This document shows positions 16,173 through 24,869 of a DNA stretch of 24,869 nucleotides, one piece after another. This DNA is from Acanthamoeba castellanii str. Neff. Its lineage: Eukaryota; Discosea; Longamoebia; Acanthamoebidae. A model generated the notes under the pieces. That model worked only from the letters and a program-made list of their open reading frames with translations. It was not told where the DNA came from and did not search any database. The position numbers and the translations under genes were made by a program. Positions within the stretch are counted from its first letter, which is position 1; each line of letters starts with the position of its first letter. The stretch lies in NCBI RefSeq assembly GCF_000313135.1, contig NW_004457573.1, forward strand, positions 68,008 to 92,876. The letters are read 5' to 3'.

Positions 16173-19102
16173 ATGCAGAGATTGGAGCAGCATGTCGCGG
16201 ATCTGGTTCGTTCCTCGCAAGCGATTGCCTCGATATCACAAGCGGTCGAAGAACTAGTGCTCAACAGTACGCCCATATTCTTCTATGTAAATGAAGCTGC
16301 GCGATTTACCAGAATCTCCCCCATTAGGCGTTGATGCGGGGTCTACCGCGGTGGAAGTAAGCGTCGCAGTCGAAAGGCACTGCTTTGAAGTGCGAGACAA
16401 TGGTACCGACGTTTTAGACTGCACTGCACCTTGCGATATGGTTTCCAAGGCCTGAGTGTTCGTAGGCCACGGCATAACACAGCACGATCTTGAACTCATT
16501 GGCGAAAGATCTGGTACTTCCTCAGCTTTGAGTGCAATGACCTTGTCTGACCAAGCGTTTCATTCTCAGCCACGTCGAAGCTGAGAACTCTCGGCGACAT
16601 GGCGCGCGTCACGACATATGGCTTTCGAGGGTTCACTTCTCCTTCTTTATCTCCTTCACAAAGAGGTAGCTAAACGGCATCTGTAGGGAAGCACTGAGCA
16701 GTCTCTGCACGCTTGCTTCTGTCGAGGTTGTGACCAAGTGTTCCGACTCAGCTCTCACCTTCGTCAAGATGGTACAAAGAGGGAAAGTTGTAAGGAAGGG
16801 TCCGGCCGATGCCCACAGGACCCTCGGTACCACCGTTTCCGTTCGAGACTTCTTCTACAACATGCCGGTTCGCAGGAAGCAAATGTCGTCGGGCTACGAG
16901 CTCGAGAGGATCAAGCAGACGCTAGAACGAATTGCGCTGGTTCATCCTCAAGTGCGATTCTCCCTGTACGACACAACAAAGGGCTCCACGATACTGCATA
17001 CTCGGCAGGTGCGTTCCCTTCTGTCGTACCGTAGTGAAGTTTGCGCTAACCCTGTTGGCCTTAGCTTCGTACTCTGCGGGCCAGCTTCGAGCAGCTCTTC
17101 GGATCGGTCGATGGGCTATGCGAGGTGGAGCACTGCGCTGGGCCTTACACCTTCCGTGGTTTGCTGTCGTATCCCAACCTAGGCCACCACTCCAAGGTTT
17201 CTCTTCTCCACATCCTTCTCACTCAAGGTGGTCTACCGTTTGACTCTTCATTCGTCGGTGCAGAGCCTTCAATTCCTGTGTACGTACCTGGGCGAACAAC
17301 GCAGTATCCACGCCAAGCGCTGAAATCGCGCCTCCCCATAGATGTGAACAAGCGCAGCGTCAAAGCCAAAGAGTTGCGCAAGTTCATCAACGAGAGCTAC
17401 CTCAGTCTTTCGCTACGGACAGTCAGCGCCCTCACTACAATCGAAGACCATCTCGATGCTGCCAACGGCTCTGCAGTCACGAGCATACAGGACGCTGATG
17501 CGAAGACGATATTCAACAAGTACGCTGTGTTCTTGTTGGACATATCCTGCCCGCCCTCAGCGTATGACGTCACGCTAGACCCCACCAAAACGCTAGTCGA
17601 GTTCAAGGTATACCGAACCTCAAAACCGTTATCACGTGCTCGCTATGACACTCTTCCTGCAGGACTGGAGCCAGGTACTACAGGGAACAGCGTCCATGCT
17701 GTGCGAGGCCTGGGCTGGAGAAAGCCTTGCTCGTGCGCCTCAACCGGACAACCAAGAGAGCGAGCACTTCTACGGCACACGCGAGGCCGCACTCATCGAG
17801 GAAACTACCGCCGACCCCGGTTCTCTCCACGCGAGCCGGAGAACAGCTCCCGACCTGAATGACTTACCTAGCGATCCATTCCCAAAGCGTCAAAAGCGAG
17901 GGGCTGACCGACCTTCGTTGGTGGCCTCAAGTACCGCCCAAGAAGTGACCACGCGCAAAGTGGATCACCAGAGTGCCAGCACTCGCATCGCTCTTCATCT
18001 GAGCTCGCACGCCCTCCAGGTACGCTACACTACACACCAAGGTACGACTCGAATGCCGGCTCACCAAGACTTGCGCAGAGGAAGCCGTTTCTAGGCAAAG
18101 CCGAAGCTTCCATCCTAAGCACGGACTGCACTCACGACCGAGGCACGCAGCTGGCCGTGAGCAAGGATGTGCTGAAGAAGATGCGTGTGATCAATCAAGT
18201 CGACACCAAGTTTATTCTGGCCAAGGAGGGCGATATGCTGTACGCATCTTCCTCCAGCCCTTTGTGCTCTCCAACGGACTCACAGCGTCCTACCACAGTT
18301 ATATCCTGGACCAGCACGCGGTCGACGAGAGGATCGGTCTTGAGAAGCTCGAGTCCGAGGCTTGGGGGAGCGACGGTGAACCAGCGAATGTGAGTTCAGC
18401 GATCGCTGAGCTCGAGTTTGCAACAACCGCTCCCGAAGCCCGGCTACTAGAGCGGTACCACGAAAGGATCGATGCGTGGGGGTGGAAGTGCAGTGTTGAG
18501 ATCTGGTACGAACAGTCCCACCTCGCCTTTCTTCCCCTTTGTGGCCTCACCGCAGATGGTACAGTGGTAGCCGAACCCAAGTGCTTGTGCGCGCCGTGCC
18601 TGCCGTCGACGGCGTGCCGCTCACGAATGTGGACAACCTGAGGGAATTCGTGACCCAGCTGGAGGCGACCAACGGCTCCGCTGCGACCAAGCCCCGATCC
18701 ATCGTTCGTCTGCTGCAAAGCAAGGCCTGCCGCGGTACTGCTGTGCGATCGTTTGCTTTTTTCCGCTTTTCTTTTTCTCGCCCGGAAACCGAACGACATC
18801 CAATCGTCGCGGTGTGTACCAGGAGCGCTCATGTTTGGCGATCGCTTGTCGCGTGAAGACTGCCAAGCCCTCATCGACCGCGTCTCTGCCTGCGCTCTTC
18901 CCTTCCAGTGTGCGCACGGTAAAGTACCACTCACACTCACCCAGATAGCCGCCCAAGCCCATTAACCCGTCACCCAGGCCGGCCAAGTGTGGTGCCATTG
19001 CTGCACCTGACTACGCTGCCGCGGCAGAGCGAGAAGGCGCGGAAAAGAGCGAAACCGAAGAGGCTGCCCGACCACCTCCGGCGAGCCTCGCGGCCAAAAT
19101 GA
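16173..19102 (+). CDS. MLH3: MLH3, MutL-gamma mismatch-repair / meiotic endonuclease subunit
   Basis: Fourteen exons: 16173-16266, 16328-16402, 16466-16513, 16570-16630, 16687-17008, 17065-17196, 17264-17279, 17342-17607, 17663-18019, 18079-18229, 18286-18505, 18565-18734, 18823-18918, 18978-19102; 710 residues. The start at 16173 (MQRLEQHVADLVRSSQAI) gives the same spacing to EELVLNS as in known MLH3; an ATG at 16101 would add 24 residues but sits inside the HGH1 poly(A) signal. ATPase motifs are present: EELVLNSVDAG, VRDNGHG, TTYGFRGEALSSL, then SLQFLYVNKR and LDPTKTLVEF. The C-terminal half keeps the nuclease motif DQHA-x2-E-x4-E (DQHAVDERIGLEKLE), KACRGA and FQCAHGRPS. MLH3 pairs with MLH1 to nick DNA in mismatch repair and meiotic crossover resolution. 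Weak points: the 16-base exon at 17264, and the exon end at 18229, where no GT donor fits and a GC-AG intron or a frame error must be assumed. Confidence 0.9.
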
Positions 19103-19242
19103 CGTGAGAACAGCAGAGGTGTCGCCGCAGACACTGCCATTGGCTGCCGCTAATGAAACGTGAGGTTTCTGTTCGCCAGGCAGCAGCCAAACGTTTTTGC
19201 GTGGCTGCGAAAGAAGAAAACAAGCGCAAGGCGAACAGCGGC

Positions 19243-22200
19243 ATGGGCCGAAGAGAAGGGCGGTGGGGGTGTGGCCTTCTCCTTCCTCAATCTCTTCTCC
19301 TTCTCCTGCTGCTTCTTTTATGCGGCCACGCCCACGCTACTCTCGTGGCATACTATTCCTTTGATAGTACGACCTCCTTCCAATCTTTAGATGCAAAGCC
19401 AGGCCCAGCTTCTCTTACATTCTCTCTCCTTTCTCTAGATGCAACGGTAGACTCTATCCCCGCACTATCTGGATACTGCCCGGCCAACGTGCCCGGTGCG
19501 TGTTCTCTTCGCTCTTCTTTCTTTCCCCCCCGCTTTCCGTAATTCCGCTTCTCTTTTCTCCTCTGTTCTCAAGGCATGAAAGTCAGCTTATTGTTGTCTC
19601 CCGGTTGCCCTCCCATTTATTAGTTGCGCTTGCTGGCCCTGCCTTTGCGGCAGTCAATGATTCGGGCATGTTCAACCAAGGCCTTTGCTTCCTGTCCAGC
19701 CGCGGCTACATGGGCACGTGTCTGCCAACCTCCCTTCTGGTTTGTAGCTGCAGCGCGAGCATGCAGGGCTAAGTGAGTCTCGTCCGTGTGCCGTGGGCTG
19801 TTTTCAGATACGTCATTTTTGAACACGGCGCCGGCTGGAACGGTTGGGGCGATTTCGTTGGCCGCGTGGGTCATGGTGCCCTTCCCTCGCGCGACCAACG
19901 GCACGCGTGTGCTCCTCTTCAAGAACGCGGCGCTGCAATGGCAGATAGCCACCGTGAACAACAGAACCGGGTTCTACAACAACGTACGCCTCCACCAACA
20001 GCTCAGCCTCTTCAACGCGCGTGTCCGAGGCAACCTCTCGAGGCTCACCTCCACGGCCGACTGTCTACGATCGTACGTGCGTGCAGGTGTACTGCATGAT
20101 GCAGTTCTCTCTCACTGGCCAAAACCGGTTCACAACTACGACCAGGAACTTCGGACCCGACCCCTTCAACTACTGGACGCACGTGGCGTGCGTCTACAAC
20201 TCGACCAACATCTGCGTCTACGTGAACGGGACCCGCCTGTCGTGCAGCGCCGCTATTTCGCGCCTGACTTTCCCCTACAATCCTGTGACCACCCTCATCG
20301 GCAACACTGCGGTCAATGGGACAGTCGGCCTGTGGGGCTGCATCGACGAGCTCAAGATCTACGACCACGCCCTGAGCGATAGCCAGCTCTATGCCCTGGC
20401 CCACCCCACCGCAGGCAATGTGCCACCGGCGGTCACCATAGGTACTGTGGCCACGACCACAGCGAGGGGAGAGGGACGCGCATGGACTAACCCCAAACTT
20501 GCTCCGTAAGGCCTCAACACGGTGCTTAGCGTGCCGCAGGCCAAGATCGACCAGAACGGAATCACCGCTCCGGCGCTCTCCTCCATCGTGTTGAACACCA
20601 CGAACCTCGACACCACAGCGGCCTTCAGCGGCAGCCCGAACGTGAGCACGCTCTACTCGTGGACGATACTCAGTAGCAACTGCGGCCTCGTCGATTCCAA
20701 CCAGACCACCACTGAGTCGCCGCTGCTCAGCCTGTTGGACGTCGGCAACTTCCAAGTGCGCTCTCGTCCCTCTCTCCGCATTCTTGATGTAGATCTGGCC
20801 ATTACTCACCCCGACCCCTTGGGTGCGGCGCGTGCAGCTCCAGCTCTGCGCCTCGGACGGTGAGACCGCGAGTGTGTTCTACGTGCAGGCCTTTATCAAC
20901 CCCAGCGTGCCCTACTTCTCCGTGACGCCTGTTACAGCTGTGACTGTCGAGCTCGGTGCGGCCGTGGAGCTCCATGTCGAAGCGGTGAGTGTGCCGGCGG
21001 CCTCCTATCAATGGCAGTACCTCACCTACGAGAACTCGACCGATACCACCAACTCGACCGAAACGACTACCTTCGCGACGATGGAGAGAAGCTTCGAGTA
21101 CCTGAGCCTCGCGATGCACGACCCCAATCAGTCCTACCGGTACCTTCGCGAGGTGCCGTACGTCGAGGAGAGGGACGACCTGATCCAGGTCTGGGTGAAC
21201 TTCCCCAACCAGACCAGAAGCACGTTCCTCATGAACTCGACTGACATCGCCAACGGCACGGTCGTGCGCTGCCGGATTCGCAACGGAGGCGGGGCGGCCG
21301 TCACCAGCGGGACCACAATCACCACCTTCGTGGCCCCGCCGACCCCCTCCCCAACACCGTCGCCCTCCATGTTCATCCCTCCCTCCCAGCGGTACGGCCT
21401 CGCCCCTCGTCCCCGCCTTTGCTGGGCTCTCGATGCGACTGACATCTTTCGTCGGCGAGCAGACCTTTGCCCGGCACAACAAGCTCGGATTCCGTGGGGG
21501 CGATCGTCGGCGGCGTCATAGGCGGCGTCACCGGACTGGCCGCGTTCCTGGCACTCATACTCGCCGTCCTCGCGTTCCTGTTCGCGCGCAGGCGGTTGGC
21601 CGACCGGCACAAAAAGCTCTCGCAGCCCGACTACGAGCAGCTGATCTACGGCGATGTCGCCGACGTCGCCCTCTCCAAGAAGAAGGCCGAGGTAACCTCC
21701 TCTTCTCCACTCCCTTGATTTGAGCGTCTGAAGGGGTGGGAGGGGGGAACACCATTCTCACTGGAGATGCCGATGGTCGGTTGGTCATTCCTCTGCAGGC
21801 CTACAGGGAACTCGAGCGGGTACTCCTGGCCGACGAGGGCAGGCTGGCGCACGCCATATTCGCTTCGATACGCCCCAACCAATCGGAGAAGGTGCCCCAT
21901 CGAACACTTGGTGAACGCTGTGAAAGAATGAAAGAAAGAAAGCACTCACTCACTGTTGGTTTCTACGTAGATGGCCAAGGCCATCATTCGCGTGTTCGAG
22001 GCCAACCAGCAGGGCAGCGCGCTCATGATCAAGCGCATTTCCCATGAGGTCGACCTGGCGACCGAGGAGTCGACCCTCTTCCGCTCCAACAGCATCGCCG
22101 CCAAGATGTACTCGGCCTACGTGCGGATGGTGGGCCTGCGGTACCTGTGGCACACGCTCGTCCTCTCGGTGCACTCCATCAACGACCGCGCCTTTGAGGC

Positions 22201-23047
22201 GAGCGGCGACGCGGCCGAGGCCGGCGACCCGGAGCACTCCTCGACGGGCTCACTCACAACCGCCTCGTCGTCCAAGTCGAAGCGGCGCTCGCGCGCCCTT
22301 CACGCGCGCTATAAGCTCGACACCGACGACAACTCGGGCCACACTTCGGACGTGCTCGCGCTGTCGAGCATGGAGATCGACCCGCTGCGGATGAACCAGG
22401 AGTCCGACTCCACCATCAACACGCTCGAGCTGTGGCTCGTGGCCCAGAAGATGCTCAAGGTCATCGTCGACAGCGAGCGCGCGATCCCCGTCTCCATCCG
22501 ACGCATCCTGCGGCACGTCAACGAGGAGATCGGCGCGCGCTACGGCGACCTCACCCAGTACCGGGCCATCGGCGGCTTCTACTTCCTGCGGCTCATCTGC
22601 CCGGCCCTCATGGCCCCTCAGGTCTACGGCCTCCTCGAGGAGCCCCCGCACCCGATGGCACAGCGGCAGCTGATCCTGATCGCCAAGGTCATCCAGAACC
22701 TGGCCAACGACACGATGCCCGGCGCGAAGGAGGAGTACATGGAGAAGCTGAACGCGTTCATCACGTCCAACAAGCCCACGCTCGAGCGCTTCTACAGCCG
22801 CATCCTGGACAACCCGGACAACGGGAAGGACGCCCACCCGATGCCCGTGCCCGACCACGCGCGCGACAGCGCCCTCATCACCATCCACCACTTCCTCGCC
22901 CAGCACCGGGAGACCGTGGAGCAGGCCATCCGCGAAGACCAAGAAGACAGCAGCGGCGGTGGTAGCGACGACAGCGAATCGCTCGTGGAAGAGCTCCGCA
23001 GGGCGTTGGACGCTCTCGGCGACCCGTCCGGCGACGAGGCCGTCTGA
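19243..23047 (+). CDS. Receptor-like RasGAP: signal peptide, LamG/Ig-like ectodomain, one TM helix, cytoplasmic RasGAP
   Basis: Nine exons: 19243-19495, 19654-19743, 19808-19983, 20087-20441, 20511-20755, 20838-21391, 21463-21691, 21799-21891, 21971-23047; 1023 residues. A signal peptide (SLLLLLLLLLCGHAHA) precedes LVAYYSFDS. A LamG/concanavalin-like domain follows (ISLAAWVMVPF, YWTHVACVYNSTNICVYVNG, GLWGCIDELKIYDHALS). Next come two beta-rich Ig-like segments (one with SYQWQYL) and a Pro/Ser/Thr stalk. The TM helix is at about 569-594 (VGGVIGGVTGLAAFLALILA), followed by FARRRLADRHKK. The RasGAP domain (about 635-950) carries TLFRSNS with the putative arginine finger R703, and the signature GGFYFLRLICPAL (866-878, R872). 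RasGAPs switch Ras off by speeding GTP hydrolysis. The donor of exon 2 (GTAGCT at 19744) is the least certain join. Fourteen N-glycosylation sequons fall only in the ectodomain part. Confidence 0.88.
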
Positions 23048-23122: not shown

Positions 23123-24864
23123 TTATCCGGAGGGTCGACAGGTGGGTGGGGCGAAGGGGGTCATGGGGGCCTCCAGGTCGACGGCGCCGTAGGAGACGTG
23201 CTTGCGGGGCTTGTGCGACCGCAGGACGGACTGGAGCTCGTCGTTGCTGACGCCGCGGCGCACGGATCGCAGGCCGGTCAGGAGCACGCTTGGGTCTGGC
23301 CCGCTCCTGGTGGGCCGGTGCGGCGTCACCCCAGGCCCCACAGTGTCCCACACGCCGCTCGCCTTCATATTGTCGCCTCGCAGTTGGGCCGCCTTTTGGT
23401 CATCACCCTCGAGGCCTGCCCCAACAAGCAATGATGAGCAACACCACACACCACAGGGAAAAAAGCGCGGCGAGGAGTACCTGGCACGGGCAGCAAGTCC
23501 ACATCTTGGCTGGGTGCGTATTGCCAGTAGAGGAGCGCGCCGGCAAAGAGCATCGAGAGCAGGACGACGCCCACGAGCAGGTGCCAGAAGGCCACCGCGG
23601 GAGGCGCCACCACCTCAATCGGCAGGCCCGACACCACCACGATGGGAATCGTCACCGCACCTGCACCCACACAGCGTGTACAGTCAGCTTACGGCATGAG
23701 AACGCCGCAGGGCTCGATCCACACAGTACCGATCACCGAGATGAGCCTTTCGATTCGCTTGGTCTTCTCGTCGCGGCGCGTCTCGGCGACCTGCTGGGCG
23801 AACTCGCGCAGCTTGGCGGTCCGCTTCTCGCTCGCGGCCTGCCGGCGCTGCTCCTCCATGTAGCCCGACTCGACGATACCCAGCACGTCCTGGATCTCGT
23901 CGCGGATCTCCTGCCGCGCCTCGGGGATGCCCAGCATCTTCCGCATCGTCGAGAAGAAGTTGGAGTACTCCGGCAGTCCGCCACAGTCATCGCTGCTCAT
24001 GCCCAGCGAGTACTTGATCATCAGCATCTGCGTCGTGTGTGTGTGTGCGTGTGTGCGTGTGTGTGTGTGTGTGTGTGTGGTCGATACCGCAGACGTGTGC
24101 GGGGGCGTTACTTCATCGAAGAACGCGGCACACTTGAAGAAAAAGTGGGTGTGTACGGCGAGGTAGCGGAGCTCGGCTCGGTGGCGCTCGAGGTACTCGA
24201 TGTTGTCCGTGCAGTCCAATCGCAGGTGTTCGGCGGCACTAGCTGCAGCACACATGGGCGAGATTAGATCATCATCCACACATGAGCGCGATCTACACAT
24301 CCACCACCACGTGGTTGACCTTACCCGACAGATTGGAGAGCTCCGACAGCACCACAGCCTCGCCTCGCCTGTTAAGAGTAGTGGTGGACCGCGGTGAGAC
24401 AATGGTTAGGCGGCGGCGGTGGGTGGGTGGGTGAAGGGGGGGTGGAGGTAGTACGCGTGGAGGGCGAGGATGAGGTAGACGCCCTGGAAGAGCTTGGGCC
24501 AGGTGACCCGCTCGAACTGGACGTTGCTGTCGTCGGTGGGCCAGCTCAGCGCCACCGAGCCCTCGCGCGATATTCCGATGTACCGGTTCTGCCGGTGCAC
24601 CAGCATCTGGTCCAGTCGCGAGCCCGCCTTCTTGACCGGCGGCGGTCGATTGCGCTGCCCAAACGCTTTTTTTAAAAGATGGCGCCCAACGGGTGAGAGA
24701 CACGACACTTAGTGAGCCGGCGACGATCGCCTACGATGGCGCAGGCCAATGGATTGAGCCAAGCGGTCGGGGTACGTACCTCGCGTGAGATGGAACAGAT
24801 ACTCCTGCAGGTCCTCCTCCGCCGGCTCCCGATCGAGCACCACCGTGGAGTGGTGGTTGGCGTG
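23123..24864 (-). CDS. Two-helix membrane protein with CorA-like layout (5' end outside window)
   Basis: Seven exons on the minus strand: 24864-24780, 24665-24455, 24368-24325, 24242-24112, 24027-23730, 23660-23481, 23415-23123, totalling 413 residues here. A TTTAG acceptor at 24869-24865 shows that more exons lie upstream, beyond the window. The N-terminal part is mixed (HHSTVVLDREPAEEDLQEYL, RLDQMLVHRQNRYIGISREG). A long charged helical region (RQEIRDEIQDVLGIVESGYM, KLREFAQQVAETRRDEKTKR) runs straight into two hydrophobic helices: RLISVIGAVTIPIVVVSGLP and FWHLLVGVVLLSMLFAGALL. This long-helix/TM1/short-loop/TM2 plan is that of CorA/Mrs2 magnesium channels, but the GMN motif after TM1 is replaced by GLP. 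I infer a distant 2-TM relative; another unrelated 2-TM protein is possible. The acceptor at 24666 (AAAAAAAG) lacks a pyrimidine tract but is the one that keeps frame. Confidence 0.7.
24034..24079. repeat. TG/CA microsatellite inside an intron
   Basis: An almost pure GT dinucleotide run with a few GC interruptions fills more than half of the intron at 24111-24028 of the minus-strand gene. On the transcribed strand it is a CA tract directly before the CGACGCAG acceptor, where a pyrimidine tract is expected. Confidence 0.9.
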
Positions 24865-24869
24865 CTAAA

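Follow-up and report, generated by a model that had tools for sequence, protein, structure and literature searches.

RasGAPs such as p120GAP, neurofibromin, and SynGAP, i.e., proteins with a Ras GTPase-activating protein (GAP) domain, are cytosolic, have no transmembrane (TM) segment or ectodomain, and are brought to membranes by other domains. A GAP of RasGAP fold is built directly into the plexins, the semaphorin receptors of animals and choanoflagellates. These are single-pass receptors; their GAP is equipped with an arginine finger, has Rap as its substrate, and is switched on when semaphorin induces dimerisation (PMC3787391). They have been proposed as a synapomorphy of Choanozoa that was formed by domain shuffling (PMC6374515). 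A LOV-domain RasGAP has been reported from Physarum (PMC4758236), and the RasGAP NF1 of Dictyostelium limits macropinocytosis, for which the arginine finger is needed, and affects phagocytosis (PMC4374526). In Acanthamoeba, the receptors for tested chemotactic cues were still termed unidentified in 2026 (PMC13359236). Here, a stretch of 24,869 nucleotides from Acanthamoeba castellanii str. Neff (NCBI RefSeq assembly GCF_000313135.1, contig NW_004457573.1, positions 68,008 to 92,876, forward strand), henceforth called the window, was analysed with respect to a gene at window positions 19243-23047, which appears to belong to an amoebal multigene family of receptor-type RasGAPs resembling, but distinct from, plexins. 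Literature searches returned no description of a receptor family in which a canonical RasGAP is paired with LamG/PKD/Ig, or of its link to PSI/IPT receptor-GAPs, those aimed at amoebae gave no such receptor by title, and the term “rasgap” occurs 0 times in the available main text of PMC4053784.

Positions 19243-23047 hold, on the forward strand, one spliced gene in which a single frame joins ectodomain, TM helix, and RasGAP domain (Table 1). Splicing by hand at GT-AG borders yielded a protein of 1033 amino acids (aa) with a single terminal stop, or of 1009 aa if an extra in-frame intron at 19367-19438 is removed. A spliced profile alignment of the window, with a profile built from the relatives P0001, P0002, and P0003 only (window protein excluded), independently chose exons 19808-19983, 21463-21691, and 21799-21891, the acceptor at 21971, and several further borders. 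Uncertain borders (hand model/profile alignment) are acceptors 19439/19451 and 20511/20555 as well as donors 19743/19719, 20441/20446, and 21391/21358. The initial annotation of this DNA, made from the sequence by a model, had drawn exon 1 as one exon throughout, which is probably split by the additional in-frame intron. This intron reads GTACGA...TTTCTCTAG; it is deemed probable because most of the stretch is missing in three aligned relatives and because splicing it out yields FDNATVDSIPALSGYC, which matches FDGASVGLVEGLSGYC of P0003. The spliced profile alignment likewise exits the exon at 19366.

The protein reads as a type I single-pass receptor, i.e., signal peptide, one TM helix, and N-out topology, as judged by hydropathy and charge only. 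Residues 1-32 of the hand model look like a signal peptide and are followed by a Laminin_G_3 domain (residues 136-283, E 4.3e-14, 53.4 bits vs the Pfam cut-off of 27.6) and by PKD-like and Ig-like regions; among 13 relatives, a K319L-like PKD was matched at E ≤ 0.01 in four and Ig_3 in three, and the Ig region is beta-rich in the predicted structure of P0003. The TM core VTGLAAFLALILAVLAFLF has a Kyte-Doolittle value of 2.74 over 19 residues and is the strongest segment, and the sole one above 1.8, beyond residue 60. Lysine and arginine residues flanking it number 0 outside and 6 inside, an inside excess that recurs in 22 of 22 proteins (three pairs among them are near-copies), and the ectodomain holds 16 sequons, the cytosolic part 2. 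On the cytosolic side, the GAP belongs to PF00616 both by a profile score above the curated cut-off and by its finger, FLR, and QNLAN motifs; TLFR, FLRLICPAL, and QNLAN align to p120GAP and are kept in the paralogs, and the scanned full-length members of the LamG and PSI/IPT types have either TLFR or TIFR. The predicted fold is the all-helical RasGAP fold, with p120GAP, SynGAP, and NF1 as top matches. Signal peptide, LamG-like and Ig-like ectodomain, single TM helix, and RasGAP with arginine finger, which the initial annotation had assigned to one model, were thus all found in place by splice model, Pfam, and hydropathy.

That a direct transmembrane LamG-RasGAP is real, as had been proposed, is borne out by the genome itself, in which at least seven further genes have the same design (C246, C101, C203, and C9a, C9b, C9c, and C9d in tandem on C9). 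The resulting eight genes are a lower bound, as gene models of RasGAP loci were made for these only; a RasGAP search of the genome gave 53 six-frame matches, which are exon pieces and not genes. All eight models share the domain order and a 93-nt linker exon of phase 0/0 between TM exon and GAP exon. A direct scan of four models (C203, C9a, C9c, C9d) placed LamG and RasGAP above the Pfam cut-offs in each, and the other three genes are represented by close records with matches to both at E ≤ 0.01: P0002 for C246 (848/855 residues identical), P0003 for C9b (926/940), and P0026 for C101 (844/900). P0003 is a 951-aa open reading frame (ORF) on a contig of 2987 nt, whose pieces match C9:388314-392609 exon by exon. 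C9b is modelled with 21 exons and 20 introns, and P0003 nevertheless agrees with it at 926 of 940 residues, so that the P0003 contig appears to be a processed transcript that covers everything from the signal peptide to the GAP end. P0026 lies on a contig of 3007 nt and P0032 bears a TRINITY transcript name; the transcript nature of P0003, P0026, and other contigs was judged from ORF versus contig size. These transcript-like family records run through LamG, TM, and GAP.

Sequence identity of the window protein to its seven paralogs is 28-32% in the ectodomain and 55-59% in the GAP, that between C9c and C9d is 67% outside and 96% in the GAP, and dN/dS (nonsynonymous to synonymous substitution rates) by region among three tandem genes is 0.12-0.37, and in two of three gene pairs the synonymous sites of the ectodomain are almost saturated; the C9b figures for the GAP are affected in both measures by a wrongly spliced stretch in that model. 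Faster divergence of ectodomains than of GAPs is expected if ligand binding diversifies while the output stays fixed. Within the tandem array of four LamG-TM-RasGAP genes (L045-L048, G000:C9:383500-403500), dS is lower in the cytosolic than in the ectodomain half, which looks like gene conversion. The public Neff model of the C9b locus (G000:C9b), P0028, has no signal peptide and no LamG half and departs from the family around FLR; the fuller protein of this locus is shown by P0003. P0006 (440 aa) is 97% identical and reads through an intron, and hence is not transcript evidence.

The family was defined here by LamG, TM, a PDY-type juxtamembrane motif, and RasGAP in one protein, all of which the window protein has. 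Both LamG and RasGAP were matched in 13 of 13 full-length LamG-type relatives (alignment A3), which had mostly been picked because their records listed both domains (partial P0009 and P0028 excluded). The initial annotation had suggested a search for the same domain order in other amoebae, and it is present in Balamuthia mandrillaris (P0031 and P0033, named Ira2/BUD2). These two and P0002 of A. castellanii Neff, which has the same LamG-TM-RasGAP order and is annotated as “GTPase activator protein for Ras-like GTPase,” are named by their GAP domain only and not as receptors. Most LamG members retain the juxtamembrane motif KLxQPDYxxLAYG, and a recognisable version, KLTPPDYPLVAFG, occurs in P0037 of the PSI/IPT type; the motif has diverged in P0036 and is not clear in P0040. 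Its PDY tyrosine is conserved in most members and replaced by phenylalanine in some; it might be a phosphorylation site, as the amoeba possesses tyrosine kinases and many SH2 proteins (PMC4053784).

Searching with the GAP side further brought up P0037, P0038, and P0040, the last being AMSG_02148 of Thecamonas trahens. All three share the TM-juxtamembrane-RasGAP module with a canonical RasGAP, but carry a PSI and IPT/TIG ectodomain instead of LamG/PKD/Ig. Plexin ectodomain chains were matched by P0037 and P0040, and the HGF receptor by P0037. Residues 286-359 of P0040, which start ahead of its first PSI, align to plexin-A4 433-504, which we take to be the end of the Sema domain plus PSI. Profiles of the LamG and PSI/IPT types over TM, juxtamembrane region, and GAP matched each other at a probability of 99.9% (E 9e-34, 157 columns). 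The receptor profile also matched that of other RasGAPs over the GAP part (99.1%, 108 columns), so that only the TM-juxtamembrane part separates the two. In a tree, a split (98/96) set the LamG and PSI/IPT types jointly apart from a comparison group of 12 rows, of which 10 are distinct, for which no TM was shown; the LamG type lay on one side of a branch (98/98), and the PSI/IPT type alone did not (2 changes). The comparison group consisted of seven proteins with no TM-like segment in the 160 residues before the GAP and of frames of C15, C235, and C48, whose cytosolic label is assumed and whose hydrophobic stretches are not assignable to exons. With nine rows dropped, the split between receptor-type and other RasGAPs stood at 92/92, the comparison group then being seven rows. 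As tree rows are a small sample gathered by likeness to the window protein, further cytosolic RasGAPs might fall among the receptor types. P0041, with its broken domain match, and many partial proteins had been excluded before the first tree.

The protein probably acts as a receptor-type RasGAP, plexin-like in outline, that translates a surface ligand into local shut-off of a Ras-family GTPase. It would sit in the plasma membrane or phagosome membrane, where its ectodomain would bind a ligand presented by prey, by the substrate, or by another cell; the initial annotation had proposed bacterial glycans or neighbouring cells as examples. Such binding, or clustering, would then alter how the juxtamembrane-GAP part is packed or how dense it is locally, and with its arginine finger the GAP would accelerate GTP hydrolysis by a Ras-family GTPase in this patch of membrane. 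The predicted outcome is a local shut-down of Ras-driven actin protrusion, macropinocytosis, phagocytosis, or chemotaxis. Its role would resemble that of NF1, the soluble RasGAP of Dictyostelium, except that a surface cue would act on it directly. As NF1 limits macropinocytosis there, a surface-gated RasGAP plausibly tunes macropinocytosis and phagocytosis in Acanthamoeba. In such a protein, a single polypeptide would connect the cell surface with Ras shut-off in a phagotrophic amoeba.

Which GTPase is served bears on a rival that is doubtful, though a serious one, namely that the target is Rap, or Ras and Rap, and that the receptor mainly controls adhesion as plexins do. Plexins contact Rap through an asparagine, where p120GAP, NF1, and dual GAPs have a proline (PMC3787391). 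The window residue four past the FLR arginine is a proline, sequence likeness is to p120/NF1/SynGAP, and no plexin was among the 35 chains found by profile at E ≤ 10; Ras, or Ras and Rap, is expected as substrate given the proline in place of the plexin asparagine, and dual action stays compatible with these data. About as unlikely is a membrane-tethered, always-active GAP without allosteric switching, whose ectodomain would be an adhesin that places the GAP, e.g., at contact sites or the phagocytic cup. Catalysis by RasGAP domains of the p120/NF1 kind does not depend on prior activation, and no further Pfam domain was found in the window protein between TM and GAP, both of which would suit a tether; the conservation of KLxQPDYxxLAYG in most LamG members and its occurrence in P0037 are more than a passive spacer needs.

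Two further explanations concern the protein as such. A wrong joining of two genes, one for a LamG membrane protein and one for a soluble RasGAP, might be suspected from the in-frame ATG at the start of exon 9, where P0001, C9b, and C9d have a methionine too, and from the paralogous public model P0028 without LamG half. This methionine is, however, replaced in C246, C101, C203, C9a, and C9c, and the artefact was rejected as extremely improbable on account of the TM-linker-GAP exon pattern, conserved in every gene model, and of the transcript-like records, which span the whole domain order. It is also very unlikely that the GAP domain is an inactive scaffold (pseudo-GAP): its first half scores low against p120 (14.3 bits), but the window protein and almost every relative scanned have finger, FLR, CPAL, QNLAN, and GAKE..YM in intact form.

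Several points weigh against a ligand-controlled receptor RasGAP. Control of the GAP by ligand is an analogy with plexins, yet the profiles show no special plexin kinship: the plexin profile reached a probability of 4% against the LamG, 2.5% against the combined receptor, and 0.2% against the PSI/IPT profile, and 80% against the profile of other RasGAPs. The PKD and Ig matches of the window protein fall short of the Pfam cut-offs, signal peptide and TM calls were made from hydropathy and charge with no trained predictor, and the C203 model does not extend to a signal peptide. Protein database searches did not find a full-length record of the window's own gene, so transcript support is at the level of the family and not of the gene. 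Separate transcripts for TM and GAP parts or a separate GAP promoter, raised in the initial annotation as grounds for doubting the join, are accordingly spoken against in the family, and cDNA of the window gene was not found.

In comparison with plexins, the window protein likewise runs from a single TM through a juxtamembrane segment into a RasGAP-fold domain. Its Pfam scan gives LamG, PKD-like, and Ig-like matches and no Sema, PSI, or IPT match, and its GAP is a canonical PF00616, so that the family is set apart from plexins by its ectodomain and by its canonical p120/NF1-like GAP. A special kinship had been suggested by fold alignments, in which matches to ten plexin entries begin at residues 549-552 of the family model and cover more of the juxtamembrane part than the p120 matches, which begin at 564-574, as if a module were shared; it was dropped on the receptor-profile probabilities given above. 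The statement of the initial annotation that no receptor of this type had been characterised went too far, since receptor-borne RasGAPs are known as plexins (PMC3787391); its interpretation is partly supported, being right in outline and overstated in novelty. The family shows that a receptor can be coupled directly to a GAP outside the plexins too, and the PSI/IPT members, in which an apusomonad combines a canonical RasGAP with a plexin-like ectodomain, make the origin of this layout testable. A broader proposal, tentative and on present evidence decidedly unlikely, holds that receptor-type RasGAPs are an old eukaryotic class in which the TM-juxtamembrane-GAP module was kept and the ectodomain exchanged (LamG/PKD/Ig in Acanthamoeba and Balamuthia, PSI/IPT in Thecamonas), and that PSI-IPT-TM-RasGAP predates the plexins, which later gained Sema and changed the GAP. 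If true, amoebae and apusomonads would preserve a pre-metazoan form of guidance-receptor signalling.

Table 1 Features of the receptor-type RasGAP gene in the window (window coordinates)
Feature	Position	Strand	Basis
Exon 1: start codon, putative signal peptide (cleavage about AHA|TLVAY), start of LamG fold	19243-19366	+	Hydrophobic h-region, family alignment
Probable extra in-frame intron, 72 nt, within exon 1 of the initial annotation	19367-19438	+	GTACGA donor, pyrimidine-rich acceptor
LamG (Laminin_G_3) match, spanning an intron	19840-20386	+	Pfam
PKD-like domain, below Pfam cut-off	20600-20870	+	17.5 bits vs 27, E 0.0043
Ig-like domain, end approximate; Pfam match 20910-21062 below cut-off	20910-21337	+	15.6 bits vs 30, E 0.023
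Exon with TM helix and juxtamembrane region	21463-21691	+	Hand model and profile alignment
Core of single TM helix, VTGLAAFLALILAVLAFLF	21527-21583	+	Hydropathy, flanking charge
Conserved juxtamembrane motif, KLSQPDYEQLIYGDV	21614-21658	+	Family alignment and juxtamembrane list
Linker exon from TM exon to GAP exon, 93 nt, phase 0/0	21799-21891	+	Equal size and phase in seven paralog models
Last exon (exon 9): RasGAP domain and C-terminal tail	21971-23047	+	AF2 model, pLDDT 76, pTM 0.73
RasGAP Pfam match (PF00616), residues 698-921	22037-22708	+	E 3.5e-25, 89.6 bits vs cut-off 28.3
Arginine finger codon (TLFR)	22082-22084	+	Aligned with p120GAP TLFR
Arginine of FLR motif (FLRLICPAL)	22589-22591	+	Invariant column R207, alignment A1

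Among the structure matches listed for the LamG part are unrelated lectin-like folds, including clostridial toxin binding domains. The GAP domain contains a low-confidence insert of about 60 residues (22232-22411, residues 88-147 of exon 9; pLDDT mostly < 50), whose length varies among relatives. The protein ends in GDEAV (23030-23044), and its Acanthamoeba relatives P0001, P0002, P0008, and P0027 likewise have a terminal valine, preceded by mostly acidic or polar residues, which makes for a possible PDZ-ligand-like tail. Downstream, an apparent multi-exon gene lies on the opposite strand (23200-24869), with a hydrophobic segment near 23560-23660; three pieces of it gave no Pfam match at E ≤ 0.1. 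Upstream, a gene at 18003-19107 on the forward strand has a weak MutL_C-like match (E 0.0079, below cut-off). Its open frames end near 19102-19107, some 135-140 nt ahead of the receptor ATG, and the receptor promoter would hence be very compact.

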